A model generated the notes under the pieces. The model was not told the DNA's origin, ran no database searches, and was given only the letters and a program-made list of their open reading frames with translations. Positions 1 to 55,508 of a stretch of 64,000 bases of DNA are shown here, piece after piece. The first letter of the stretch is position 1; each line of letters starts with the position of its first letter. The position numbers and the translations under genes are program-made. Source of the stretch: Saprospiraceae bacterium (lineage in GTDB: Bacteria; Bacteroidota; Bacteroidia; Chitinophagales; Saprospiraceae); contig JAHDHL010000021.1 in assembly GCA_020631355.1 (NCBI GenBank), positions 1-64,000 of the forward strand, in the 5' to 3' direction.

Positions 1-3000
1 GAATCCTCATCCGTCTCGCCGAAACCGTAATCCTCTGAGGAATCATCCGTGATTTCCGCCCAGTTTCGGAAGTGACGTAATGTTTCGTCAACCACTTCCA
101 GTGTGATGGATACCGTTGCCGTCTGACCCGGATTCAGGTTTGGACGGTTCGCCCAGGTCACCAAACCACCTGCATGGGTTCCTCCGTTCGTAGCAGATAC
201 GAAGACCATCCCTGCGGGAATCCTATCCTGAATGGTATAGTCATAGGATGGTACATCTCCCTGGTTCTTCACCGTGATATCGAAGGTCACCTGACCATTC
301 GCCTGGATGACTAAAGGACCTTGACGGGTCTTGATCAATGCCAAATCGTAGTCAACATCAACTTCTAAATCTTCATAATCATTATCATCCTCATCGCCCG
401 CAGGATTATCCGCGTCTATGTTATTATGATTCGTTACCTGATCGTTCGGTCCTACACCGAAGCCCTGTGCATTATCGTTACCGATATTCGTATCGGGAGT
501 AGAATCCTCATCTGTAGTATTATAATTACCTGAGCCATCACTAATGATTTCAGCCCAGTTTCTATACTGTCGTAATCTTTCGTCTTCTACATTTACTGTT
601 ACTGTACGAGTAATGGTTTGACCAGGAAGAAGGTCTGGCATATTCCAAGTTACATTACCACCTGAATGAGAGCCACCATTAGAAGCAGAAACGAAAGTCA
701 GACCTGCGGGAATCCTATCCCTAATAACATATCCCATTGATGGTACATCACCTTGGTTTTTCACTGTAATTGTGAAAGTTACATTCGTACCAGGTGTCAC
801 GGTCAAAGGTCCCTGACGAGTCTTAATCAATGCTAAATCGTAATTTACATCAACAGTTACAGAAGCGGGATCCGCATCATCCTCATCACCTCCACCATTA
901 TTGATTTCATTATCTACTTCTGTATCATTATTAGGATTTTGGTCCCTATCAGAATCCACATCCGTAGGAGTAAATCCACTTGGGGCATTAGCATTGGATA
1001 TTTCCACCCTATTGGTAATAACTTGATTATTTGCTAAAGGATAATTAGCTCTGAATGTGATGGTTACGGAAGTCGATTGGCCTGCATTCAAAGAACTAAT
1101 TGTACGGGTTGTTTTTCCGCCAGAAGGAGCACTCCAGTTACTGTCTTCCAATGTTAAACCTGCTGGAATATAATCCGTGATTTGAATATTTGAAGCATTC
1201 AATGAACCTTGGTTAAACACTGTAACTGTAAAGGTTACCAATTGATTTGGAGTGATGATACCATTCGCTGGATTGGAAACGACTTTCCTAATTGCCAAAT
1301 CGAAACACTGTACATTCACTTGTGCTACACAAGTAGATGTGTTTCCACATTCATCCCTTACAGTAAGTGTAACAGGTACAACTGTACCACACTGATTTCT
1401 GGAGAATGTGCTAGGAACTACACTAACCAATTCAACAGGTCCTGTATTACAAACATCAGAACTACTATCAAATACATCAGAAGGAGTAATAGAAGCATTC
1501 CCATTATCATCCAACTGAACTGTAATATTCCTACAAACCAATGGAGCTGGACCATTATTATCCACCACTGTGAATGTAGCTGTTCTAGTAACTGTGTTAT
1601 TACAGTTATCTCTGATGGTATATGTTACAGTCATGGCTCCTGTTAGACCACAACCATTAGATAGGTTATTATAATTGTAATTGCTTGTTACGGTTACACC
1701 CGAACAAGCATCAGAAGAACAACCTTGAAGCAATGCAATATTGGCATTGTTCCATGCATTGGCAGCAGCCTGATTTCCTGCTAATCCATTACATTCATGC
1801 GTTTCGTTCTGAGGATTACAAGTAACTACAGGATTCTCATCATCCACTATTTTGGTGACTACATTCGAAGTCAACCATGATGTACAAGGAAGCCTCCTTG
1901 ATTGACGACGATATTGAGTAGTAGCAGAGATGGTACCTGGATCATAGGATGCACCAGTGGCACCTGAGATGGTTGTCCATCCTCCCCAAGTATTGGAACA
2001 ATGGTCTCCTGTTCTTCTTTGCCACCTGTATTCATTCGTACCATAACAAGACCCTGTAGGAGGAGCGGTACTTACGATATTACTTGGATCGAATGCATTA
2101 CAAACCGATTGGTCTCCTGAAATGGAACCCGGATTGTTATAATTCCTAACAGAAGTTTTCGTCACCACATTAGAAGTGAGCCATGGTGCACATGGACTTC
2201 TTCTGGATTGTCTTCTGTATTGATATTGGGTTCCTTCAGGGATGGTACCCGGATCATATGTTGGACTATTGGAACCAGAGATGGTTGTCCAAGCAGACCA
2301 AGCGCCACCACAATTGCTAGAACGTTGTTGCCATTGGTAGGTTGCCGTACCATTAGCACCTCCTGATGGAGAAGCACTATTCGCAATAACACTCGGATTA
2401 TAAGAACCACAAACTTCCTGATCGCCAGATATGGAACCAGGATTCGTGTAATTATTCGTAACTGTCTTAGTAACTATATTGGAATAAATCCAACCACAGG
2501 GTTGAATTCTGACAGCCCTTCGATACTGCATGGATTGGGTGATTGTTGGAGGATCATAACTTGTATACAAGATATCTGTACCATCGGAATCATCCACATA
2601 ACCCGGGATATCCGTCCATGTTGTAGAACCAACTGGTCTTGACTGCCATTTGGAATCTTTCAATTCAGGATAACTGTGCACACCACCAGAAGGATTGGTT
2701 GCTGTTATCACAGAGGGATTAAAAGGCGTACACCCTTCCTCATCAGAGGAAAGGGTTCCTGGATTGGTATAATTGTTTGAGATATGAACATCCCTGATAT
2801 TACTATAGTACCATGTATTACAAGGTGCACATCTTGCCCCTCTCCTAATCCAATTCGATACAGTAGTATAAGGTAGGTTAATATCCTTACTTGTAGCACC
2901 TGCGATATTGGTCCAAACCCAACCATTGGCAGCATTCTTTTCCTGCCATTGATATTGGATATTACCATTCACACATCCTGTGGCGGGTGCTTCGACCCAT

Positions 3001-4589
3001 GTTGGGGGGTCACCACCATTACAATATATATTGTATCCCTGGATGGTACCCGGATTGAAACCCGAATCATCCGTTACATTAATACATACCGTATTGGTAG
3101 TCGTCCAACTGGTACAGAAGTAAGCTGGATTCCCTGTTTCGGGACCCACTGTTTTTGATTGTCTTCTGAAGCAACAGTTTGCATCAGAGGCGGGTACATT
3201 ATAGGTATAACCTGTGGCTCCGGGAATGGTACTCCATGAAGCACCTCCATTACAGCTTTTTTGCCAGCGATGCACATCCCAATCCCCCCAATCATAACTG
3301 GTATAGGATGAACTAGGAGACTGGACATTTTGGATGGTGTAACCATTGAATGGAGCACATACATTTTGGGTGTATCCGATAGAACCCGGATTCAAGTCCC
3401 CAACGATGTGGACATCCCTATCAGAGGTATACTGCCAATTACCACAAGGATAACATCTTGCTCCTCTCCTATACCAATTAGAAGAAGTCGTATAAGGTGG
3501 GTTAAATGTAGCACTTGTAGCTCCTGCAACATCCACCCAGTTCCAATTTGTTGAAGCGTTTTTCTCCTGCCATTGATATTGGATGGTACCACCAAAGCAA
3601 CCAGATGCAGGTGTCTGATTGTTCCAAGCAGGAGGATCAAAAGGTGCACAATTCAGCGACCATGAATGTACCTGCCCAGGATTGAATCCTGATGCATCGC
3701 ATGCAGATTCGAATCTTAGACAAACTCCAGAGGGAACTACTGACTCAGGGCCTGTATTATCACAATGACGGAATCTGATCTGATCAGCTCCGTTTGTTAA
3801 TAAGGTTGTTCCTAGTGAACCAGAAGTATATGAGGAAATCACTCCATCTTGGATATCCGCTGTACAGCCAGGGGATTGACCGACCAAGGAACCATTTCTC
3901 CAATACTCTACATACCAAGATTCGTCATATTGATTATTTGTATTTTCACGACCACAGTATCCATCCCAACTGATATAATTTTGAACAGTTATATTAAGGT
4001 ATGCACTATGGAAAGATGAAGGCAAGCTGATGAATGGACTTGCATTATTATTATTCGCTAATAATCTATAGTTGTACGCATTCAAATCACAACCATCTCC
4101 AGACATGGATGCATTCAGATTCCAAGACCAAGTATTTCCTCCACTACAAGGTACCGGTGGTGGTGGAGTTGGAGTTGGTAATCTTTCACCGATCCGGGGT
4201 TGGTACTGAGGTTGTACAGGATTCCAATAGGAACCAGTATAATTATAGTACCCACTATTCACATTATTTATAATATCCCAAGCACCTGAGCTTGATGGTG
4301 AAGTCCCATTCGAGAAGTACCATACGGCCGCCTGAATATCATTCGTATTATAATATGGTATCCCTGCCAGACAGTCGGAGACACTATTGTTCGTACTGTT
4401 GTTGGATAGACTATATAACAAGTTACCACCTGTTGCAAGATTAATGTCTGCACAGAATACAGTATAATTCCCTCCATCATAAGACATGTTGAAGTTATTA
4501 TATGTACCGTTCTGAGCAGATACAGATAGTGATATGCACAATATAGTGACTAAGAGGAGGGATTGTACTTGTAAAAATCTGGAATTCAT
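1..4589 (-). CDS. Giant secreted surface protein with possible thioester, Ig-like and DUF11 repeats (3' end outside window)
   Basis: The frame is open from an ATG at 4589 to the window edge, giving about 1,529 codons with no stop. A signal peptide ends near VSAQ (residues 23-26). Residues 27-100 hold FCADI (Cys46) and DIQAAVWYF (Gln86), which resemble the Cys and Gln motifs of thioester adhesin domains. A proline-rich linker follows. Residues about 300-905 are several Ig-like repeats of about 90 residues, each with a YQW or YRRQSR segment and a NPGSI(S)GDQ turn. A cysteine-rich HYR-like region follows (about 910-1090). At least three DUF11-type repeats (DLALIKTRQGPL) with acidic DEDD linkers start near 1095. 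DUF11 proteins are typically long cell-surface stalks. A C-terminal T9SS domain would be expected but lies off the window. It lies 59 bp downstream of another secreted protein. The adhesin role is inferred. Confidence 0.85.
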   Translation of the reverse strand, partial: MNSRFLQVQSLLLVTILCISLSVSAQNGTYNNFNMSYDGGNYTVFCADINLATGGNLLYSLSNNSTNNSVSDCLAGIPYYNTNDIQAAVWYFSNGTSPSSSGAWDIINNVNSGYYNYTGSYWNPVQPQYQPRIGERLPTPTPPPPVPCSGGNTWSWNLNASMSGDGCDLNAYNYRLLANNNNASPFISLPSSFHSAYLNITVQNYISWDGYCGRENTNNQYDESWYVEYWRNGSLVGQSPGCTADIQDGVISSYTSGSLGTTLLTNGADQIRFRHCDNTGPESVVPSGVCLRFESACDASGFNPGQVHSWSLNCAPFDPPAWNNQTPASGCFGGTIQYQWQEKNASTNWNWVDVAGATSATFNPPYTTSSNWYRRGARCYPCGNWQYTSDRDVHIVGDLNPGSIGYTQNVCAPFNGYTIQNVQSPSSSYTSYDWGDWDVHRWQKSCNGGASWSTIPGATGYTYNVPASDANCCFRRQSKTVGPETGNPAYFCTSWTTTNTVCINVTDDSGFNPGTIQGYNIYCNGGDPPTWVEAPATGCVNGNIQYQWQEKNAANGWVWTNIAGATSKDINLPYTTVSNWIRRGARCAPCNTWYYSNIRDVHISNNYTNPGTLSSDEEGCTPFNPSVITATNPSGGVHSYPELKDSKWQSRPVGSTTWTDIPGYVDDSDGTDILYTSYDPPTITQSMQYRRAVRIQPCGWIYSNIVTKTVTNNYTNPGSISGDQEVCGSYNPSVIANSASPSGGANGTATYQWQQRSSNCGGAWSAWTTISGSNSPTYDPGTIPEGTQYQYRRQSRRSPCAPWLTSNVVTKTSVRNYNNPGSISGDQSVCNAFDPSNIVSTAPPTGSCYGTNEYRWQRRTGDHCSNTWGGWTTISGATGASYDPGTISATTQYRRQSRRLPCTSWLTSNVVTKIVDDENPVVTCNPQNETHECNGLAGNQAAANAWNNANIALLQGCSSDACSGVTVTSNYNYNNLSNGCGLTGAMTVTYTIRDNCNNTVTRTATFTVVDNNGPAPLVCRNITVQLDDNGNASITPSDVFDSSSDVCNTGPVELVSVVPSTFSRNQCGTVVPVTLTVRDECGNTSTCVAQVNVQCFDLAIRKVVSNPANGIITPNQLVTFTVTVFNQGSLNASNIQITDYIPAGLTLEDSNWSAPSGGKTTRTISSLNAGQSTSVTITFRANYPLANNQVITNRVEISNANAPSGFTPTDVDSDRDQNPNNDTEVDNEINNGGGDEDDADPASVTVDVNYDLALIKTRQGPLTVTPGTNVTFTITVKNQGDVPSMGYVIRDRIPAGLTFVSASNGGSHSGGNVTWNMPDLLPGQTITRTVTVNVEDERLRQYRNWAEIISDGSGNYNTTDEDSTPDTNIGNDNAQGFGVGPNDQVTNHNNIDADNPAGDEDDNDYEDLEVDVDYDLALIKTRQGPLVIQANGQVTFDITVKNQGDVPSYDYTIQDRIPAGMVFVSATNGGTHAGGLVTWANRPNLNPGQTATVSITLEVVDETLRHFRNWAEITDDSSEDYGFGETDED

Positions 4590-4648
4590 AGTAATGTAGT
4601 TAATAGCTACTGAACGTGTTCTTGAATTGATTGGATTCATCATTGGGA

Positions 4649-5770
4649 TTATTTGGTAGTGACAATCATTTCGACGAATACTGATGATGAATCATCAATT
4701 TGGGTATCATCCACATTGAGGCTGATACCCGTTTCGTCGCCTACCTTGAATCCGTATTTGGAGATTTCCTTAGTTTTCCCGTTGGAGTCTTGGAAAACCT
4801 TTTGTAAGGCAATAGAAGTATTGTTATTCAGAATGAACTCTTTCTCATTGATGAGATTCGCTTCGAACCGTACCATACCGTCGGCTCTGAATACTACGTC
4901 GTTCATATTTCCGTTTGTTCTTATCTCGTATGTCAGCTTAATCGAATTGGGGGATTTACCCTCCACAGTCAAATCAATACCATTGTAGGCATTGTTATAT
5001 TGCAGAAACTGATATTTTGTGACAGTCATCGTATTTACGCCCAATGCTCTTGCCATGGGTTCCAATGTGATAGGTTCATCGGATTCGTTGATCTTGTTCA
5101 AAACTCGCAGTTGGGAACTTGCATCGTTATTCGCCACATCCAACTTGAAATTAGCTTCCGGATTATTATCATCATTAAACATGATGGCATGTCTTCTGAA
5201 GACCAATGACCTTTCCATTGTACCATATCTAATTAGATGGTATCTGTTGGGTACATATTCATGTGCGAACGGATACTCATCTGTCCCTCCCTCGATTGTT
5301 CCTTCCTGAACACCAGAGAAAAGAGTGACATTATTCCTCCATGTCAGGGAAGATGTACCGAAAGAGGAATGTACCGTGATGTCAGAATAAGTACCAGAAG
5401 GCAGGCCTGTTGCGACAATGATGTTGTTCTTGTTCAGACAGGAAAGACTTTGGGTCTTACCATTCACCTTGAATTCCACTTGGAATGGTGTATCGGAGGA
5501 TACCTGATTAGCCAGTATGATGATTAGTGCTCCATCATTGGCTCCAGCCTTGGTTTCATTCTTTGCATTGACCCTATTGACAATGATTGCATTTTCTGCG
5601 TGACCTCCATCAAAATTCTCGTAATCATAAACACCATGTTCTTGCTGTCCATTAGATTGGAAAGCACACAGTAAGAATGATAGAGAAAATAGCATGGGGA
5701 GTGCTAATTGCTTGAAACGATAAGAGACATTTGGTGCAGTTGGGTACAAGTTGGTAGAAAGTAATTCCAT
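4649..5770 (-). CDS. Secreted protein resembling the DUF7948 domain
   Basis: This is a 373-residue protein with a long basic N-region and a hydrophobic core (residues about 25-37), cleaved near SNGQ. The body is beta-rich. It contains YNGIDLTVEG and a following KLTYEI segment, and these resemble the DUF7948 domain found at the start of Bacteroidota beta-propeller surface proteins. I see no T9SS sorting domain and no lipobox, so it is probably periplasmic or released. It lies 59 bp upstream of the giant surface protein on the same strand with no clear terminator between, so the two are probably co-transcribed and may work together. The family call is by pattern only. Confidence 0.6.
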   Translation of the reverse strand: MELLSTNLYPTAPNVSYRFKQLALPMLFSLSFLLCAFQSNGQQEHGVYDYENFDGGHAENAIIVNRVNAKNETKAGANDGALIIILANQVSSDTPFQVEFKVNGKTQSLSCLNKNNIIVATGLPSGTYSDITVHSSFGTSSLTWRNNVTLFSGVQEGTIEGGTDEYPFAHEYVPNRYHLIRYGTMERSLVFRRHAIMFNDDNNPEANFKLDVANNDASSQLRVLNKINESDEPITLEPMARALGVNTMTVTKYQFLQYNNAYNGIDLTVEGKSPNSIKLTYEIRTNGNMNDVVFRADGMVRFEANLINEKEFILNNNTSIALQKVFQDSNGKTKEISKYGFKVGDETGISLNVDDTQIDDSSSVFVEMIVTTK

Positions 5771-13404: not shown

Positions 13405-15102
13405 TCAATTCCCACTCATCTTGGCGAACTTCTTCACTACCCTATCCTCACCTGACTGGATAACCATCATATAGTATCCCTTGGCCAAGTGCGAGACATC
13501 TATGGTTTCCAAACGATCACCATCCAAGGAAGACAATATCTCGTTACCTAATGTCTTACCAGTCATATCTATGATGGAAACCTGTACATCAGTTATCTTG
13601 CTTGTAGATAATTCCAAGGTCAGGTAGTCTGAGACAGGATTCGGATATATATCATAGACCTCCAGACCATGCGCATCCGTATTGGTTTCACCAGCCTGTC
13701 GCATGGGAGGTATGTTACTCGTATTGAAATGCCTGAATCCAGTTGCATTGGCAAAATCCCAACTATCATTACAATAGGACCTCACCCTATATACATACTG
13801 GGTATTGGGTTGTAGGTAATGGAGGGTCTTGTAATTATTCAGGGCTCCTACCCTTGTCCAATCCGTGCTGCTGACGGGACGGTAAAGGACATCATACCGC
13901 TCTGCTCCTGGCTGTTCATCCCAAGTGATATTCAGTTTTGATGGATACGATAATTGATGTTGTACATTTTGGGGAGGACCGCATTGTGGGATGCATGCTG
14001 CGCAAGATTCCCAACAAACAGGATCCAAGGTTATCGTCCCTGTCATGTAATGCGTTCTCGAACCATAAAAATCTGGACCCATCACTATACACTCACCCAT
14101 ATTGGCTGTGCTCTCATCAACTTCACCTGAGTTAATAATATAACCATACCTGAACATTCCTGGGTTGATGGTTGGAGTCGTGAACGTATAGATACCGTCG
14201 CCATCGGAATCACTCATATAATTACTTGGCGCAATAGGATATCCCCCGTAGAAATCGCCAATAACCTGAATATTAATATTATCTGTTTCACTGTAAAATG
14301 GATGGGAAAACTGACTCATATCTAACTGGAAAGTAATATTCCCCTCAGAAACATCATTACAGGATTCGCAGGTATTCCAACAAAATAAATCATTGGAGGT
14401 ATCTGTAGGGTAAGAAAGATAATGGTTTAGTTCATTCCCATTCTGAAGAATGCAGGAAGCATCTGTCGTGAATATTTCATCATTAGGTATATTCGTTTCA
14501 GGGAATCCTATATGAAACCGATATTCAGTACTACCAGCAGGTAGGGCCATTGTAATAGAATAAACACCAGTACCCGTAAAATCATACAGGAGATTATCTC
14601 CACTAAAATAATTCCAATCGTTAAAGTCCCCTACGACTATCAGTTCCTCAAATGTATATGGATATTCCGTCATATCTATCTGAAAAGTCACATCCACCAT
14701 GGGTGGTGGTGGTGCATTACACTCGTAACAGTCATTCCAGCAGGCTTCTGTCAGTATGCTATCGGATGCTATTACGAGGTGCCGCCTGTATTGTCCGGTA
14801 TTGAACTGTGTGCAGTATTCCCCTCCTGCAAAACTTTCCTGGTCTGTCAGGTCATCCACAGTAAAGAGGTAATGTATTTCCGGATCGGATATACCTATGG
14901 TCAATTCATATATTCCATCTCCGTCCGTATCGGACATGGGATTCGCTGTACCACTCCAGGCATTGAAAGAACCGCTAACATATACTTGGGTATAAGTACC
15001 TGTGTAGTTATTCATATCCACCTTGAAAGTGATGTTGTTTTGGGCATGAAGCTGAAATATGGAAAAAAATGAAAATAATAGTAGGGGTACAATCTTGTTC
15101 AT
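13405..15102 (-). CDS. T9SS-secreted protein with three glycogen-binding-like E-set repeats and a fibronectin type III domain
   Basis: The protein is 565 residues from the ATG at 15102, which gives a clean signal peptide ending LHAQ. The in-frame codon 36 bases upstream adds a charged leader and is less likely. Three E-set/CBM48-like modules occupy about 22-129, 135-249 and 255-370. Each starts VTFxxDM, carries a GDFNxW or GSFNAW turn and DGDGIYxxT, and ends CWxxCxxC. Fn3 follows (375-465, SYPSKLNITWDE, YVYRVRSYC). Residues 481-565 are the T9SS sorting domain (IYPNPVSDYLTLE). The third E-set repeat is the most diverged. It is the first of four similar genes beside the glucan operon, which suggests surface glucan binding; this is inferred. 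I saw no catalytic domain. Confidence 0.8.
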   Translation of the reverse strand: MNKIVPLLLFSFFSIFQLHAQNNITFKVDMNNYTGTYTQVYVSGSFNAWSGTANPMSDTDGDGIYELTIGISDPEIHYLFTVDDLTDQESFAGGEYCTQFNTGQYRRHLVIASDSILTEACWNDCYECNAPPPPMVDVTFQIDMTEYPYTFEELIVVGDFNDWNYFSGDNLLYDFTGTGVYSITMALPAGSTEYRFHIGFPETNIPNDEIFTTDASCILQNGNELNHYLSYPTDTSNDLFCWNTCESCNDVSEGNITFQLDMSQFSHPFYSETDNINIQVIGDFYGGYPIAPSNYMSDSDGDGIYTFTTPTINPGMFRYGYIINSGEVDESTANMGECIVMGPDFYGSRTHYMTGTITLDPVCWESCAACIPQCGPPQNVQHQLSYPSKLNITWDEQPGAERYDVLYRPVSSTDWTRVGALNNYKTLHYLQPNTQYVYRVRSYCNDSWDFANATGFRHFNTSNIPPMRQAGETNTDAHGLEVYDIYPNPVSDYLTLELSTSKITDVQVSIIDMTGKTLGNEILSSLDGDRLETIDVSHLAKGYYMMVIQSGEDRVVKKFAKMSGN

Positions 15103-38322: not shown

Positions 38323-38361
38323 ACTAAAGGCCCTTTGTCTGTCAGACAAAGGGCCTTTAGT
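38323..38361 (+). terminator. Terminator after the S9 peptidase gene
   Basis: A near-perfect palindrome of 39 bases, with the arm ACTAAAGGCCCTTTGTCTG at 38323-38341, forms a stem of up to 19 bp. It isolates the upstream gene from the replication module that follows. Confidence 0.88.
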
Positions 38362-38971
38362 GTATATTATGATTGGTTCTCCCCTACCCTATTGCGTCAA
38401 ATTTATTAAAACCATCCATTTTTAGTTTATAGGATACTTTTTCATTAGCAATTAGGGCAGTTCTGAACAACCCCTATTGCGTCAAATTGGTAACTCCCAT
38501 TGTTTCACCATTCTTCCTAGAAATCCCCATGCATGAAAAAGTACTTGATACCAATAAAAAAGAAAGCCGTTGTATATATTCGATTTTCTAAAAACCTGAT
38601 GCCATAATATTCAACTAAATTGGTCGCGAATCCTCGCAATTACTGATACAAGTAAAACCTTAAATAAGGTTCCGTGTGTTTAAGTATAAAATCAAACACA
38701 CAAATACGCATTTAATTATAAATTGAAACAAGTATTTACTGCAATACTTTTTAATTTTAAATACTGATAACAGTATTCACTTTATTACTTTTTTAATTTA
38801 ATTAGTAAATAATGTTTTATGCTTATACTTTTTTGATTAAAAACTTTTATATTTGTTTCAGTATTTATGGTAACAATTAAATACGCTCATGCTTAAATCA
38901 GTTTTTACGCTAAAATTTAAATACTGTTTTAAGTAAATACATAAAAGAGTAAACCATCAAATAAGTATTTC
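38362..38971. promoter_or_regulatory. Intergenic region upstream of parA: two iteron cores and candidate centromere/operator
   Basis: This gene-free stretch of 610 bp becomes very AT-rich. Two copies of the iteron core TATTGCGTCAAAT lie at about 38390 and 38475. From 38730 to 38969 the hexamer AGTATT or its complement AATACT occurs at least seven times. Two pairs form perfect inverted repeats: AAGTATT/AATACTT (38730-38749) and AATACTG/CAGTATT (38760-38777). TATATTTG at 38848-38855 matches the -7 promoter consensus for parA. Clustered short repeats in AT-rich DNA upstream of a small ParA gene are the usual place for the parS/parH centromere and autoregulatory operator. Confidence 0.6.
38848..38855 (+). 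promoter_or_regulatory. -7 promoter box of the parA operon
   Basis: TATATTTG matches TAnnTTTG exactly, 116 bp upstream of the parA ATG. It lies among the AGTATT repeats, so a repressor bound there would block it. No TTG is present at the ideal spacing. Confidence 0.45.
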
Positions 38972-39610
38972 ATGATTGTTTCAGTTACAAGTCTCAAAGG
39001 AGGGGTAGGGAAGTCTACATTATCAACCAATTTAGCCGTCTGTTTTGCCCACATGGGATACAAAGTTGCCATCGTTGATACGGATACGAACATGAGTTCT
39101 GTGCACTGGTCGGGTCTACGAGGCGATGAGAAGCCTTCTGTGGCCGTTTTTGGCATCACAGATAGCGATGCCTTACGAAAGAACGTCAAGAAGCTACAGG
39201 ACGATTATGAATTGGTCATAATTGACGGAAAACCGACCATCTCGAAATTGGTAAGTACCATTATCATGTTGGGGGATGTTGTTCTCATCCCATTGAAGCC
39301 ATCAGGATTGGACATTTGGGCTACCGAACAGTTCCTAGAAAAGTACGAACAAGCCAAGACTTTGAAGGATGTAAAAGCATTTTTTGTGCTCAATGAATAT
39401 GATCCAACACTAAATCTAAGTAAGGAAACAAAAGAAGCATTAAAGGATTTAGAAATACCCACTTTGGAAACTACTTTAAAATCCAGGGTGTCCTATAAGG
39501 AAGCAATTGTAGTGGGAGAGGGTGTTTATGAATATCAGGATAAGAAAGCAAAAAAGGAAATCAGGGACCTAACAGAAGAAGTTCTAAAGTTACTTCAAGA
39601 GAACGCATAA
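38972..39610 (+). CDS. parA: ParA/ParF-type partition ATPase
   Basis: This is a 212-residue deviant Walker ATPase. The P-loop is KGGVGKST (9-16) with the signature lysine. VDTDTNMSSVHW follows, and the Walker B-like region is LVIIDGKPT. It lacks the N-terminal helix-turn-helix of type Ia ParA proteins. The size and the small basic partner gene 11 bp downstream fit a type Ib (ParF/ParG-like) system. Such ATPases form ATP-dependent gradients or polymers on the nucleoid and move plasmids apart. It is encoded on the same strand as its partner, the iterons and the initiator gene, which is the order of a stable low-copy replicon. MinD-like function is less likely because there is no C-terminal membrane-targeting helix. 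Confidence 0.93.
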   Translation: MIVSVTSLKGGVGKSTLSTNLAVCFAHMGYKVAIVDTDTNMSSVHWSGLRGDEKPSVAVFGITDSDALRKNVKKLQDDYELVIIDGKPTISKLVSTIIMLGDVVLIPLKPSGLDIWATEQFLEKYEQAKTLKDVKAFFVLNEYDPTLNLSKETKEALKDLEIPTLETTLKSRVSYKEAIVVGEGVYEYQDKKAKKEIRDLTEEVLKLLQENA

Positions 39611-39621
39611 AGGATTAGATT

Positions 39622-39972
39622 ATGGCAAAGAAAAGATTAAACCTAAGGTCAACCATGAATAAGAATCAGGAAACTGAGCTTCCCAAAAAGGTTGAATTAA
39701 GAAAGAGTACGAAGAACTTAGAGGAGGTTAAGGAAAAGGTTGAAGCCATCCATAAGGAAGAAGTTGCTGCACCCCAGGCTCCAGAGCCTGCCAAGAAGAA
39801 AACCAGAAGTCCGAGGAAAGCGTCCAAACTAACTACCGATAAGGAGGAAATCGTCAGGATTACCATTGACCTGCCCAAGGACCTGCATAAGAAACTGAAG
39901 ATATACGCAGTCATGAATGAAGTGACGATAAGGAATCATGTGGTCTCGCTACTCAGGAAAAACCTGAAATAG
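39622..39972 (+). CDS. ParG-like ribbon-helix-helix centromere-binding protein
   Basis: This is a 116-residue, highly basic protein. The first 70 residues are rich in Lys, Glu, Ala and Pro and look disordered. The last 42 residues form a ribbon-helix-helix: strand IVRITIDLP, helix DLHKKLKIYAVMN, turn, helix TIRNHVVSLLRKNL. This is the architecture of ParG and similar type Ib partition proteins. There the folded end binds the centromere and represses the operon, and the floppy tail stimulates the ATPase. The ATG is 11 bp after the parA stop, so translation is probably coupled. The role is inferred from fold and position. Confidence 0.82.
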   Translation: MAKKRLNLRSTMNKNQETELPKKVELRKSTKNLEEVKEKVEAIHKEEVAAPQAPEPAKKKTRSPRKASKLTTDKEEIVRITIDLPKDLHKKLKIYAVMNEVTIRNHVVSLLRKNLK

Positions 39973-40819
39973 TCTATTGCGTCTAAATCGTATCCGCGCA
40001 ACTAATAAAAACTTTTCTTTTAGGTCATATAAGGAATAAAAATCATATAGATTTATCAAATCACCTGAGCTATTAGGTTTGTTTTTTTCTACATGATAAG
40101 TATTTCTTATACATAAAGTACTTTCTTCTCTCTCCGTGAGCCTACTATTCATATAGGATTCAGCGATTTCTTGCGTCAGAACAGTACTCCAGATCCATAT
40201 AATAACGTCAGGAAAGTATCATTTTCCTTTTCCATTGCGTCACGCTTTGTTCCTAAAGCGTCATGAATTTTCATATCTCTTTGTTGGCTAGCCTATTGCG
40301 TCGGTTTGTTACAGAATTGCAGGTAATAGGGTATACTTCTTCTTTTCTATTGCGTCTGAATGGTATCAATTATCCGTGATTATTCCATTTTTTGTGTCTA
40401 TTGCGTCTGCGGATGTGATTTTGGGGTGGTTTTTACTAATTTGACGCAATAGTTTTCATTGGATTTTCCCCTTATGATGCCTATTGCGTCTGAATAGTAC
40501 TAAATTTTAACATTTTGGGGCTTAATATTACATCTGGATAGCTATTGCGTCTGAATAGTATCTGTTTGATACCCTTATCACTTACTATTTTGACGCAATG
40601 TCATTGTTTGTCGCCCATTGAATTCAGCCTATAACGTCAGAATAGTACAAATCAAGAGTCCAGACGCTTTAGGTTCAGCATACATATTGTAACTAGCTTG
40701 TTATCGTGATACCTAAAGCGTCTAAATAGTATCATAATATACGATGATAAATATCGATTTAATTATGATATTGCGTCCATAAACGCAACTGACGCAATAG
40801 TTAAAGAAAATCTTTCCTT
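39973..40819 (+). other. Candidate origin of replication (oriV) region
   Basis: This is an 847-bp gene-free stretch that combines the iterons, an AT-rich block (39990-40140) and the start of a Rep_3-type initiator gene. That is the standard composition of iteron-controlled plasmid origins. No convincing DnaA box was found: TTATCCGTG at about 40371 has two mismatches to TTATCCACA. Activity is inferred. Confidence 0.72.
39974..40800. repeat. Iteron array (candidate replication origin)
   Basis: About 17 copies of an iteron lie between the ParG-like gene and the initiator gene. The best copies read CTATTGCGTCTGAATAGTAT, for example at 40347, 40481 and 40542. Other forward copies start near 39974, 40168, 40202, 40232, 40252, 40292, 40398, 40628, 40712 and 40768. 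Inverted copies (GACGCAATAG or similar) lie at 40443, 40592, 40662 and 40791. Core variants are ATTGCGTC, AAAGCGTC and ATAACGTC. Spacing is irregular, from about 20 to 85 bp. The last pair (40770-40800) is an inverted pair just before the initiator ATG. An AT-rich stretch at 39990-40140 could be the unwinding element. Confidence 0.88.
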
Positions 40820-42313
40820 ATGAAGCCATCAATGGCTGAGTTGCAAAGAATTGTAACACTCTCAAATGACTTAGCAAAGAATCCGCCTACTCAACTTAAA
40901 AAAGTGGAGTATCAGGCTTTGCTTATTCTTGTTTCCTGTATTGATAGTATGGAGAAACCTGTTTTCTCTTTGGATGATATCAAGCAGGAGATAGATGACT
41001 TGGGTATTACGGATCCTAATGAGCAAATGCGTTATTTGGAACTGTTCATTACAAAACAGAATACATTCAGAATACCTTTCAAGGAATATGCCAAGTACTT
41101 CTCTGATGGCAGAACTGCCAGAGGAGGGGTAGCCAAACGGGCCCTGGATGCTGCATTGTCCCTGAATAATCGTGACCTTACATTCAATAATACAGATAGT
41201 GAGGGAAGTCTGAAATGGTTCCAGGCTGTTTATCGGGATAAGAAGACGGATGAACTGGTTTTTGTGATTACTTCCCTAATCAAGCCATTCCTGATGGGAC
41301 TCCAAAAGGACTTCCTACAAATGTTGGCTGCCAGTACAATGGATTTTGATGGAAAACATTCGATTCCCATTTTTCTATACATGAAAAGTAAACTCTATGC
41401 AGGTAATGATGAAATAAGGGGAAAGGAAAGTGTTTTGGAATTCAGGCGTAGATTCGGATTGGATAAAATCAAAACCTATGACAGATTCTACGAATTGGAG
41501 CGTAGGGTATTGAAAGTAGCATCCGAGGATTCGAAGAAAAGTGGGGATATTGCCTTTACCTTTGAGGGCAGAGCAACACGAACAGGAACGAAGAAGATAA
41601 CCGAAATCCACTATCATATATTTAGGATTGGAGGTGCCTTGGCAGCCGCAAAGCGAAGCTTGTTTGGAGGTAATCATAAGGAGAAGTTGGGACAATTGAC
41701 CCGTTCCCAAAAATTAGCCTACGATTATCTGGCGGAGAAGGATGTGAATAAGGCGTTCATAGTGGATAAGATGTTCCCTCATCCCAAATTACAGTATGAA
41801 CCATTGGTTGGGTATGAGGATATCTATTTTGACCTGGTTTGGAAATTCTTTCTCAAAAAGACAAAATCCAAGAATCTTGCGGGAGCATTCGTAACCTGGT
41901 GGAAAAGAGGACGCTTGACAGAGGATAGTTTGCATGCCAAGATGATAGAGGCTGTTCAGCATAAGAAGAAAACCTTACCTCCGGGTGTATTGGAGAATAG
42001 GGAATCTGCTAAGAATATGACCGTAGAGGAATTCAGGGAGTTCATCAGAGGTCAGAAATTGGGGCAACCCAAAGGGAAACGCCCACTGAATATCCAGAGT
42101 CCGGACCACCAGATGAGTAGGGTAGGGAAGCCACCATTCAGATTGGAGGCATTCAAGAAAAAGTATCCTAGTATTTATGCTCAGATAGAGGAGGAACGCA
42201 CACAGGCATTCATGAAGGATTATAAGGACTTTCTGAATAATGGGCGGGTAAGGAAAATGCTGACAGACAGCATTGCTTCCCATTGTGAACAATATTATCT
42301 AAAACAAAAGTAA
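40820..42313 (+). CDS. Rep_3 family plasmid replication initiator protein
   Basis: This is a 497-residue protein. The first 280 residues have the paired winged-helix pattern of Rep_3/RepB initiators: LKKVEYQALLILVSCI, IPFKEYAKYF, LVFVITSLIKPFLMGLQKDF, SIPIFLYMKSKLY, then the second domain with EFRRRFGLDKIKTYDRFYEL, RRVLKVASED and EIHYHIFRIGG. Initiators of this family bind iterons as monomers to start replication and as dimers to inhibit it. About 215 further residues (from HKEKLGQLTRSQK) are basic, unusually long for the family and of unknown role. Iterons run up to 20 bp before the ATG, so the protein probably represses its own gene. Confidence 0.92.
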   Translation: MKPSMAELQRIVTLSNDLAKNPPTQLKKVEYQALLILVSCIDSMEKPVFSLDDIKQEIDDLGITDPNEQMRYLELFITKQNTFRIPFKEYAKYFSDGRTARGGVAKRALDAALSLNNRDLTFNNTDSEGSLKWFQAVYRDKKTDELVFVITSLIKPFLMGLQKDFLQMLAASTMDFDGKHSIPIFLYMKSKLYAGNDEIRGKESVLEFRRRFGLDKIKTYDRFYELERRVLKVASEDSKKSGDIAFTFEGRATRTGTKKITEIHYHIFRIGGALAAAKRSLFGGNHKEKLGQLTRSQKLAYDYLAEKDVNKAFIVDKMFPHPKLQYEPLVGYEDIYFDLVWKFFLKKTKSKNLAGAFVTWWKRGRLTEDSLHAKMIEAVQHKKKTLPPGVLENRESAKNMTVEEFREFIRGQKLGQPKGKRPLNIQSPDHQMSRVGKPPFRLEAFKKKYPSIYAQIEEERTQAFMKDYKDFLNNGRVRKMLTDSIASHCEQYYLKQK

Positions 42314-42315
42314 AA

Positions 42316-42345
42316 TCTAAACACATCGAATCCGATGTGTTTAGA
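42316..42345 (+). other. Hairpin between rep and the KilA-N gene
   Basis: A perfect 13-bp stem (TCTAAACACATCG at 42316-42328 with 42333-42345) and AATC loop lie 3 bp after the rep stop and 16 bp before the next ATG. It is followed by A-rich, not T-rich, sequence. It may be an attenuator, an RNA processing site or a protein-binding palindrome. Confidence 0.6.
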
Positions 42346-42361
42346 AAAATGAGAGGGATTC

Positions 42362-43225
42362 ATGGCCAAGAAGAACACTACCATCTTCATTAAGGAAATC
42401 GAAACTAAGATCAGGGTCAATAAGAATGATTCTGGTGATGATTTCATATGTATCACTGATATTTCCAAGTATGCGAATCCGGATCGTCCTGAGAATCCTA
42501 TTCAGAATTGGATGCGTAATGCCTCCACGCTTGATTTTTTGAAGGAATGGGAATCCATGTACAATGATGATTTTAATCACATCGAATTCGATGGGATTAG
42601 AATTAAGGCGGGGACACCTGCTTTTGGTATGACTCCGACACAATGGGTGAATCGAACGAATGCGATTGGCATTTATTCCAAAAGAGGGCGATATGGAGGA
42701 ACCTATGCCCATAAGGATATTGCATTCGAATTTTGTTCTGCCATTTCTCCTAAATTCAAACTGATGATCATCAGGGATTATCAACGGTTGAAAAAGGATG
42801 AAGCCATGCGATTGGGTAGTGTCTGGACTATCCGGCGTGAACTGGCCAAGGCTAATTACGCCCTACTTACAGAATCTATCAAGAATAATCTTATTCCGGA
42901 CGAATTAATCAGCTCTGGAAAGGAAGGTATCTATTTCGCCTCTGAAGCTGATTTATTGAATAATATTGTTTTTGGAATTACTTCCAAGCAATTCAAGTTG
43001 GATAACAGTGATAAGAAAGGAAATTTGCGTGATCATGCAAGTACGGTTGACTTATTGATTCTGGCCAACTTGGAAGCCCTCAATTCTCGTCTTATCAAAT
43101 GGGATTGTGATCAGGCCCAACGTTTCGAACTCCTGACCGAAGCGGCAAAGGATTTCCGGAAAATTCTTACAAAGAATAATGCTATTAAAAGATTATCAGA
43201 TCGCCAAGATCAATTATTAGGTTAG
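42362..43225 (+). CDS. KilA-N domain DNA-binding protein
   Basis: This is a 287-residue protein. The N-terminal KilA-N domain (about 10-150) shows ITDISKYANPDRPENPIQNWMRNASTLDFL (here ITDISKYANPD and IQNWMRNASTLDFL), FGMTPTQWVNRTNAIGIYSKRGRYGGTYAHKDIAFEFCSAIS (FGMTPTQWV, GGTYAHKDIAFEF) and FKLMIIRDYQRLK. The C-terminal half is helical with no named domain recognised. KilA-N proteins are DNA-binding proteins common in phages, plasmids and Bacteroidota mobile DNA, often of unclear role. The gene is 48 bp after rep on the same strand and ends before two terminators. It is therefore part of the replication module, perhaps as regulator or copy-control factor; this is inferred. Genomic or phage-remnant origin is an alternative. 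Confidence 0.88.
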   Translation: MAKKNTTIFIKEIETKIRVNKNDSGDDFICITDISKYANPDRPENPIQNWMRNASTLDFLKEWESMYNDDFNHIEFDGIRIKAGTPAFGMTPTQWVNRTNAIGIYSKRGRYGGTYAHKDIAFEFCSAISPKFKLMIIRDYQRLKKDEAMRLGSVWTIRRELAKANYALLTESIKNNLIPDELISSGKEGIYFASEADLLNNIVFGITSKQFKLDNSDKKGNLRDHASTVDLLILANLEALNSRLIKWDCDQAQRFELLTEAAKDFRKILTKNNAIKRLSDRQDQLLG

Positions 43226-43359
43226 TAGTACACACTATGTGCTGGAAAACGAAAATTAGCAATCTACTCATATTTTATTTTCTTCCAAGAAAATTACGAA
43301 TGAGTAATATGTCCAAAAAAAATTAAATTTTTCGGGCCAACCTTAAAACTTTTTCGAAG

Positions 43360-43389
43360 AACAACTCGTTATAATAGTAGTTGTTTTTT
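43360..43389 (+). terminator. Terminator after the KilA-N gene
   Basis: AACAACT (43360-43366) pairs with AGTTGTT (43379-43385), followed by TTTT. This is the first of two terminators closing the replication module. Confidence 0.7.
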
Positions 43390-43405
43390 GGGGTTATATT
43401 TTTTT

Positions 43406-43441
43406 GCGTGTGCTCACATCTCTGTGACACACGCTTTTTTT
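43406..43441 (+). terminator. Strong terminator between the KilA-N and histidine kinase genes
   Basis: GCGTGTG (43406-43412) pairs with CACACGC (43428-43434), with an inner CAC/GTG pair, followed by seven Ts. It marks the right edge of the replication module on the plus strand. Confidence 0.88.
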
Positions 43442-43455
43442 ATGCCCAACAACAA

Positions 43456-54587: not shown

Positions 54588-55508
54588 ATGTCCAAGAGAA
54601 TGAATCATACTAACATCCATAACGAGGTGAACAAAGCATTTCCTGTATTACACAAAGGAATGAATAAGGGATACGAATATACCCGCCAATACAATCCTGA
54701 ATTGGCTGATCTGATCCGTCAGATGTTCCTTATCTTCATGAAGCCCCTAACAGCTTTGAGGGCGAAACTCTATCGGATTTTCCTGAAGCCATTCAAGAAA
54801 GTGGAGAACAGTAGGATTCCCGTATTCAGGCTCTTGGTTATTGGTATTGGATTCTTCCTTTTTTCCCAGAAAGACATCTCATTTTCAGTCAATATGAGTA
54901 ATTCGGGAAGTATGATAACCCAATCATCCGAAACGGAAATATTCGACCTGAATAAGGAGGACGGACTCAGTATGATAGAAGACGACGACGATGTCCCCAA
55001 AGCAGTGGGAACCAGTCTCAGCCAACCCAGTGACTATGCTCCTGTCAATGTCAAACAATTGGAAGATAGATATTCACCAAAGGAATACATCAACAGATTC
55101 AAGGGCGTAGCCATTTCGGAAATGAAAAAATTCGGTATTCCAGCCAGTATCACACTGGCTCAAGGACTCGTTGAGAGTAGGGCAGGAAACAGTAAGTTAG
55201 CTGTACAAAACAACAATCATTTCGGTATCAAATGTTTCAGTAAGAAATGTGGAAAGGGGCATTGTACGAATCACTTTGATGATAACCACAAGGATTTCTT
55301 CCGTAAGTACGATTCCGTTTGGGAATCTTTCCGTGACCATTCCAAAATCCTACAAAAGGATCGTTATAAGAAGTTGAAAAAGCACGGTAGGGACTATAAG
55401 AAATGGGCCAAAGGACTCAAGCAGGCAGGGTATGCCACAGATAAGCGATATGATAAGAAGTTGATTGCTACAATCCAGAAATACAAACTATATGAATATG
55501 ATAAATAA
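54588..55508 (+). CDS. Membrane-anchored N-acetylglucosaminidase (GH73-type peptidoglycan hydrolase)
   Basis: This is a 306-residue protein with about 80 cytoplasmic residues, one membrane helix (VFRLLVIGIGFFLF, about 82-96) and an acidic linker. The C-terminal domain is a glucosaminidase (about 165-305). It has YINRFKGVAISEMKKFGIPASITLAQGLVESRAGNS (YINRFKGVAISEMKK; the likely catalytic Glu is in GLVESRAGNS), NNHFGIKC, a Cys-rich KCGKGHC insert, and FRKYDSVWESFRDHSKIL. It should cut peptidoglycan glycan chains in the periplasm. The long N-terminal cytoplasmic part is unusual. Confidence 0.88.
   Translation: MSKRMNHTNIHNEVNKAFPVLHKGMNKGYEYTRQYNPELADLIRQMFLIFMKPLTALRAKLYRIFLKPFKKVENSRIPVFRLLVIGIGFFLFSQKDISFSVNMSNSGSMITQSSETEIFDLNKEDGLSMIEDDDDVPKAVGTSLSQPSDYAPVNVKQLEDRYSPKEYINRFKGVAISEMKKFGIPASITLAQGLVESRAGNSKLAVQNNNHFGIKCFSKKCGKGHCTNHFDDNHKDFFRKYDSVWESFRDHSKILQKDRYKKLKKHGRDYKKWAKGLKQAGYATDKRYDKKLIATIQKYKLYEYDK

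Follow-up and report, generated by a model that had tools for sequence, protein, structure and literature searches.

A palindromic site within the kilA-N gene of a probable iteron plasmid from a Saprospiraceae bacterium

Introduction

The window analysed here comprises bases 1-64000 of contig C119 (96,129 bp) from the draft genome of a Saprospiraceae bacterium (G000; 6.16 Mb in 142 contigs); two 100-N gaps of the contig lie beyond the window. Between 38.97 and 43.23 kb, a ParF-type ATPase, a partner with a ribbon-helix-helix (RHH)-like tail, iteron-like sites, a Rep_3 initiator and a KilA-N protein are found on one strand. A previous inspection of the DNA letters (the sequence-only reading) had described this five-part core, and the open reading frame (ORF) calls, the Pfam matches and the iteron counts confirm it. 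The locus raises the question of what kind of replicon carries the core and what the KilA-N gene does in it. The joint explanation that we consider probable is that C119 is an iteron plasmid of low copy number, at least 96 kb in size, whose KilA-N gene contains a palindromic DNA site within the coding sequence itself. The plasmid belongs to a known kind; what stands out is the palindrome in the KilA-N gene.

A palindrome within the kilA-N coding sequence

The features concerned are the following.

42362-43225, plus strand: kilA-N, encoding a KilA-N domain protein of the PADLOC family PDC-S22 (PADLOC; Pfam KilA-N 70.6, cut-off 23.8)
42319-42342: palindrome upstream of kilA-N, 11 of 12 pairs, four mismatches from the in-gene palindrome
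42575-42598: palindrome of 24 bp within the kilA-N reading frame, with 11 of 12 pairs formed, over the codons for NHIEFDGI, at a position fixed family-wide

The KilA-N protein of C119 matched PDC-S22 with an E value of 4.2e-106 (residues 3-282 on positions 3-277 of the 281 of the model), and PDC-S22 and a weak PDC-S13 were its only PADLOC matches. We take PDC to denote a candidate defence family and no more. All seven KilA-N proteins tested, as well as ten of ten viral ones, matched PDC-S22 over most or all of the model. Relatives of the protein were obtained from 26 plasmid records, 14 phage records (including Staphylococcus phage EW and Streptococcus satellite phages) and 180 viral-contig stretches, the best 80 of which were used as viral loci.

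Neither palindrome figured in the sequence-only reading; the upstream one, which is also present in the congener G001, led to the one inside the gene. In the first 20 genes compared (from the window, five other genomes and fourteen named plasmids) a palindrome of 9-12 of 12 pairs was found without exception, approximately 190-250 bases into the gene. Addition of the 80 viral loci, which had been fetched with peptide patterns that do not overlap the palindrome codons, gave 100 genes, and removal of 33 as redundant at 80% identity left 67. In these, a single alignment column reached a mean of 10.91 of 12 pairs, while the column average was 3.18 and the next best column 5.52. Ten or more pairs were formed in 60 of the 67 genes (12 pairs in 30, 11 in 19 and 10 in 11); the remainder had 9 pairs in 5 genes, 4 in 1 and 3 in 1. 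The 49 genes outside the discovery set behaved in the same way, with a mean of 10.84, at least 10 pairs in 44 of them and no other column above 5.55. When this set was clustered at 60%, 25 of 30 genes had at least 10 pairs.

The symmetry is not that of one conserved sequence, as the 67 genes contain 55 distinct 24-mers encoding 50 distinct octapeptides. Re-dealing the right arms among the genes reduced the mean to 7.51 (standard deviation 0.17, maximum 8.09 of 2000), and redrawing synonymous codons from the usage of each gene gave 7.16 (maximum 7.58 of 200); since the sequences share ancestry, these shuffles are a guide and not an exact probability. The residues flanking a mostly conserved Glu-Phe vary as reverse-complement codon pairs, i.e. 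Ile..Asp (ATC/GAT), Leu..Glu (CTC/GAG), Val..Asp (GTC/GAC), Val..His (GTG/CAC), Gly..Ala (GGC/GCC) and Thr..Gly (ACC/GGT). Because the arms vary from gene to gene and a base change on one side is matched by a compensating one on the other, selection acts on the DNA. The symmetry perhaps extends to about 16 pairs, the outer part being given without comparison to the controls. No description of the in-gene palindrome was among the matches listed in the open-licence literature.

A palindrome of 24 nucleotides could also fold with a short loop, and it would then be an RNA hairpin in the kilA-N message. The unpaired positions (15 G.T, 18 A.C and 40 others) contain no excess of G.T over A.C, thus there is no sign of RNA wobble pairing. 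Furthermore, the two centre-most pairs, which would form the loop, are symmetric in 0.91 and 0.94 of the genes, although mostly conserved Glu-Phe codons lie there. We regard the hairpin as highly improbable.

Proposed role of the palindrome

These comparisons are best explained if the in-gene palindrome acts in cis as a gene-specific DNA site, probably one that the KilA-N protein itself binds. The domain is of a DNA-binding kind, and the protein would bind its own palindrome as a dimer in a gene-specific sequence. L187, with only 3 of 12 pairs in the gene, has an 11 of 12 palindrome at -43; this suggests that a site is required in cis, as opposed to a feature of the protein.

Several observations weigh against this interpretation. 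Seven of the 67 genes have fewer than 10 pairs, and besides L187 the gene of L182 has only 4; no palindrome of at least 10 pairs was found upstream of the latter. A copy of the gene's own site (at most 5 mismatches) just upstream occurs in only 4 of the 67 genes (G001, L185, C119 and G003), while any palindrome of at least 10 pairs within 120 bases upstream occurs in 8 of 67. The best upstream mismatch averages 11.0 for the gene's own site and 11.3 for the sites of other genes, the lowest control value being 2. Finally, the structure prediction of the KilA-N protein was too weak to be used as evidence (predicted local distance difference test, pLDDT, 60.3).

The palindrome might instead be the site of another protein, for instance of the "recombinase family protein" that is encoded near kilA-N on several plasmids. 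Such a gene adjoins kilA-N or lies within about 2 kb of it on pPAU1, pAUEb, an Aureispira sp. CCB-E plasmid and two Saprospira plasmids. However, no recombinase family was listed among the 50 scanned C119 proteins, and the site has a fixed place in the kilA-N gene, with arms that vary from one gene to the next. This alternative is unlikely, although it deserves more weight than the hairpin.

If the KilA-N protein is the one that binds, two roles can be envisaged. The protein would control its own expression, or the site would mark its own replicon as self. The former fits the upstream copies at -36 to -43; the latter is in line with arms that are specific to each gene, with the occurrence on mobile elements and with the BstA precedent. 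Autoregulation seems somewhat more likely than self-recognition. According to excerpts of its published description, BstA is a KilA-N-like phage-defence protein with a 63-bp DNA element, aba, that extends across the beginning of the BstA gene and acts only against the cognate protein (PMC8585504). As far as these excerpts go, BstA and the PDC-S22 genes have in common the KilA-N or KilA-N-like N-terminal domain, the phage and plasmid homes and a short, homologue-specific DNA element in the own locus. They differ in the form of the element: aba is 63 bp long, spans the gene start and contains direct repeats, whereas the PDC-S22 site is a 24-bp palindrome approximately 200 bp into the gene. The C119 protein is likened to BstA by description only; identity with BstA was considered and is not claimed.

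A more far-reaching suggestion, which we advance tentatively and which may well prove wrong, is that the KilA-N proteins of PDC-S22 guard the replicons of plasmids, phages and satellites: each would recognise the gene-specific palindrome in its own coding sequence, the gene would thereby serve as its own self-mark, and the protein would block the replication of competing, unmarked DNA. The mark could diversify, as the encoded amino acids are free to change as reverse-complement codon pairs. A DNA site fixed at one place in the genes of a mobile-element family, with compensatory changes that reach the amino acids, offers a way to test how this defence candidate works. If the reading is true, the target sequence of each KilA-N protein should be predictable from its own gene.

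The location of kilA-N relative to rep varies. An annotated Rep was found within about 5 kb of kilA-N in 3 of the 14 named plasmid loci viewed (several of these views are cut by the start or end of the record), and in the genome G024 kilA-N is 41-59 kb from Rep on a circle. A search for hidden Rep proteins beside kilA-N gave no match on a Saprospira plasmid and on pAUEa, and none on a Pontibacter plasmid, where Pfam only was used.

Related modules and named plasmids

Orthologous modules, iterons included, are present in two congeners on G001:C22 (14,469 bp) and G003:C216 (33.5 kb). The first 55 bases of G001:C22 recur at 14,366, leaving a tail of 49 bases, which amounts to a circular overlap. 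Closing the contig at this overlap brings an SRPBCC-like gene before a domain of unknown function (DUF) gene (both recognised by eye), in the order seen on G003:C216. A more distant module, with ParA, partner, Rep and KilA-N beside polysaccharide and sulfur genes (by eye), occurs in a family relative on G024:C34; an exact 99-base terminal repeat indicates that this contig is a circle of 102,227 bp.

The same genes are carried by named plasmids. On pHALHY03 (Haliscomenobacter hydrossis, NC_015513, 92 kb) and pAUEb (Aureispira anguillae, 87 kb) ParA, partner, Rep and KilA-N are all present, and on the Aureispira sp. CCB-E plasmid ParA, Rep and KilA-N. The excerpted text of PMC3156403 states that H. 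hydrossis carries three plasmids. The Rep proteins of pHALHY03 and pAUEb each gave an hhalign probability of 99.7 with the C119 Rep, and the pHALHY03 partner gave 94.9, though the Rep alignments span only about 220 columns of the N-terminal part with 18 and 21% identity. Gene order and strand on these two plasmids are unlike those of C119, and insertion sequence (IS) elements are present.

Cargo was compared as well. Two of the four non-module genes of G001:C22 that could be matched by DNA have their best match on C119 (a fatty-acid-hydroxylase-family gene and a glucosaminidase gene, the latter with weaker matches on four further contigs), and one of three blocks in the first 20 kb of G003:C216 matches C119 best (an FAA-hydrolase gene). 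G001:C324 (L043) begins with a different ParA and small-partner pair. It matches C119 at 10.8-13.3, 51.5-53.2 and 75.6-82.8 kb and C85 once, with a few weak matches elsewhere, while the control contig G001:C308 has a collinear block on C114. G001:C324 is perhaps a second plasmid type that shares cargo with C119. On G006:C717 (L058) a ParA 80% identical to that of C119 is combined with a very different Rep_3 protein; no ATTGCGTC was found in the compared stretch, which includes an assembly gap, and no kilA-N was seen in the 9 kb read. The partition and replication modules seem to have been exchanged there. The 53-55 kb Saprospira plasmids (L123, L129) have pyrF adjoining kilA-N, with guaA too in the viewed stretch of one, and they carry a glucosaminidase gene like the one at 54588-55508 of the window. 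C119 and its relatives suggest that Saprospirales plasmids of about 100 kb carry polysaccharide and other metabolic loci that are chromosomal elsewhere.

Plasmid, chromosome or chromid

The sequence-only reading had proposed a megaplasmid or chromid. Its extrachromosomal part is upheld by the circular relatives and the named plasmids, while the term itself exceeds the evidence, given the occurrence of a close module in only 2 of 8 same-genus genomes (all of them fragmented assemblies, where plasmids are easily lost) and the dinucleotide usage. We therefore call C119 a plasmid. That it is an extrachromosomal replicon is very likely on the basis of the sequence comparisons, and autonomous replication is predicted. 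The circular relatives (the overlap of G001:C22, and G024:C34), the named plasmids with the same gene set and the purifying selection on the module support this. The separation from chromosomal markers expected by the sequence-only reading was found too: the single dnaA match of the genome lies on contig C66, and C119 yielded neither a tRNA nor an Rfam match at gathering level.

Other results weigh against the plasmid. The S9 peptidase gene adjoining the module is chromosomal in the congener G001, since the S9 gene beside the C114-collinear block of G001:C308 matches C119, and in G006 and G007 the neighbours of the glucan locus are chromosome-like genes (by eye). The placement of these loci indicates that part of C119 has moved from the chromosome, or is chromosome. 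The GC-skew minimum proposed for 39.9-40.8 kb is absent. A check for circularity did not close the contig either: both ends of C119 fall in giant repeat genes, and no exact end overlap was found.

Some further observations concern these ends. The repeats at the left end (window 3-4691) match contigs C21 (L091) and C107 (L092) with up to 91%. Contig C21 (12,749 bp) is one open frame throughout, having neither start nor stop, with repeats like those of the C119 left end and C107. It is probably the middle of a giant surface-protein gene and may be the missing middle of the left-end gene of C119, though no exact overlap joins the two. The two end genes of C119 may be halves of one gene.

The chromosomal placement of S9 and, by eye, of the glucan locus is what would be expected if C119 were part of the chromosome and a plasmid core had inserted between the S9 peptidase gene and the kinase-FIST pair, and the open ends of C119 are compatible with it. 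On G006:C717, moreover, the related ParA and Rep_3 lie beside an ABC-F-like gene (by eye), hence integration may occur. Against this, the module is intact and under purifying selection, and scattered genes are common to other rep- or par-bearing contigs. The absence of mobility genes and attachment repeats claimed previously was borne out: among 56 C119 ORFs of at least 80 amino acids, 50 proteins were scanned with Pfam (E limits 0.01, 1e-5 and 1e-8), and no transposase, integrase or relaxase family was listed; the self-comparison of C119 at E 1e-5 gave no direct-repeat pair around the module, although attachment cores shorter than about 20 bp would escape it. An empty site in related strains, which the sequence-only reading had named as decisive against itself, was not seen in the congener contigs compared; the S9 gene is on four of them and the kinase-FIST pair on one, and on none do the two flanks lie side by side, one side being unseen in G007, where the S9 gene runs off the contig end. 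Integration is thus judged unlikely.

The base composition bears on the chromid, i.e. a plasmid-type replicon with core genes and chromosomal composition. The GC content of C119 (0.404) is close to the mean of 20 chromosome samples (0.408), plasmid-type replication and partition genes are present, and the S9 gene is chromosomal in a congener. Among the relatives, G024:C34 bears methionine-synthase-like and sulfate-assimilation-like genes (by eye), and pyrF and, in one, guaA are found on the Saprospira plasmids. However, the dinucleotide distance of the whole C119 is 48.1, above all of 500 chromosome resamples (mean 14.6, standard deviation 5.0, maximum 31.5), though the 30.4-64 kb stretch is ordinary (20.9 vs 20.2, standard deviation 9.1). 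The tetranucleotide correlation is below the chromosome mean of 0.961 in four of five 19-kb windows of C119, with a lowest value of 0.856 vs a chromosome minimum of 0.890. Since C119 also lacks tRNA, rRNA and dnaA and the close module is rare among the congeners, we find a chromid rather unlikely, slightly more so than integration.

Partition genes, origin and initiator

The remaining parts of the core are listed below.

38389-38495, plus strand: two extra iterons upstream of parA (starts 38389 and 38474), absent from the sequence-only reading
38711-38799: 2.2 copies of an AT-rich repeat of 41 bp ahead of parA, a candidate for the centromere or for an operator
38972-39610, plus strand: parA, ParF-type partition ATPase (ORF call, Pfam, NCBIfam, PDB relatives)
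39622-39972, plus strand: small partner with RHH-like C-terminus, ParG-like by position (ORF call, PHROG)
39974-40800: origin region with 14 iteron-like sites, consensus CTATTGCGTCAAAATAGTAT (profile), core conserved in two congeners
40770-40798: inverted pair of iteron cores just before rep, in all three species, candidate Rep operator
40820-42313, plus strand: rep, Rep_3 initiator of two winged helices and a C-terminal extension of about 230 amino acids (Pfam, structure model)

The parA product has Pfam ParA-type ATPase domains and scored 189.9 against a cut-off of 180 with the NCBIfam model "ParA family partition ATPase" (NF041546). Its two best solved relatives are the ParA of 5u1g and the ParF of 4dzz (E 2.9e-28 for ParF), the plasmids of which we take to be pNOB8 and TP228, respectively. 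As in ParF/ParG of TP228, a small RHH-like partner is encoded downstream of the ATPase, but the C119 partner has no detectable sequence match to ParG. It gave no Pfam match above the cut-off and no meaningful PDB match; its Arc-like PHROG matches are restricted to the C-terminus (1.2e-5), with which the tail of the pHALHY03 partner aligns. Thus of the ParG-like partner named previously the position and the RHH-like tail stand, the label being owed to these two. ParA and the partner would segregate the plasmid.

In the window ATTGCGTC has 15 copies where 1.11 are expected, a number reached in none of 100 shuffles, and 13 of the 15 fall at 38391-40798. The iteron profile, which is partly circular as it was trained on the C119 sites and two related loci, found 14 sites in 39973-40819 vs 0.06 in shuffles. 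There are 10 copies of CTATTGCGTC on C119 and 10 on all remaining contigs combined; in neither of the congener loci was it found upstream of parA. G003 and G001 share the iteron core without any change, and their Rep identity is 83% and 76%, respectively. While classical Rep_3 iterons are spaced about 22 bp apart, those of C119 are mostly 40-60 bp apart. No exact DnaA box was found in the three origins, which have one-mismatch sites only.

Rep exceeded the Pfam cut-offs for Rep3_N (49.9 bits, cut-off 22.4) and Rep3_C (28.8, cut-off 21.1). Its predicted model (pLDDT 72.5) resembles mini-F RepE (Foldseek E 7.5e-6) and pi of R6K (7.8e-6), and more weakly the N-terminal domain of pPS10 RepA (0.026). 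These Rep_3 initiators likewise have two winged-helix domains, iterons and inverted half-sites ahead of rep; the C119 Rep, with 497 amino acids and a long C-terminal extension, exceeds them. The extension is alignable in G024 and G022, and the two named relatives among the Rep matches are Saprospiraceae metagenome-assembled genomes. In known Rep_3 plasmids the inverted half-sites ahead of rep are where Rep represses itself. By analogy, Rep would bind the iterons at 39.97-40.80 kb and open the origin, and it would repress its own gene via the inverted iteron pair.

All four genes are open in the three species (C119, G001 and G003) and under purifying selection. For rep the proportion of nonsynonymous differences (pN) is 0.12-0.16 vs 0.74-0.86 for synonymous ones (pS); only proportions are given, dS being saturated among the three species.

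Borders of the module and a hairpin element

The terminators that the sequence-only reading had placed at both borders agree with the inverted repeats of terminator character found there, at 38323-38361 and near 43405-43440.

38323-38361: strong, terminator-like inverted repeat (arms of 19 bp) that separates the S9 peptidase gene from the module
43373-43442, plus strand: conserved 25-bp core with hairpin and T run, terminator or small RNA (inverted repeat near 43405-43440)

The element at 43373-43442 consists of GCATAGTTGTTTTTTGGGGTTATATTTT, a 12-bp hairpin and a T run. Over 11 sequences 130 of 130 cells of the hairpin are paired, and three pairs have changes on both sides. It occurs on four rep contigs (C119, G001:C22, G003:C216 and G006:C717) and, in addition, nine genomes of the genus each have it on one more contig (loci L053-L062, L111 and L113 are in the set). 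A methylmalonyl-CoA-mutase-like gene (by eye) adjoins eight of the nine further copies; the copy of G005 is at a contig start, where that side is unseen. The idea of a plasmid-specific site (dif-like or a small RNA) was considered and set aside.

In a family search of 150 genomes with strict filters, strong matches were obtained only in G000, G001 and G006, all of the same genus. Of the weak matches, two more fell in G000 and G001, and 10 other genomes had a single one each. The 13-mer TTTTTTGGGGTTA was absent from 384 kb of chromosome samples, and the hairpin element had no Rfam match. Since many weak matches have TTTTTTGGGGTTA, a hairpin and a T run in common, the element is at least a type of terminator. 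Other members of the family have a shorter form, TTTTTTGGGGTTA with the hairpin; L111 has five copies, and those of L110, L114 and L120 lie near radA-like genes (by eye).

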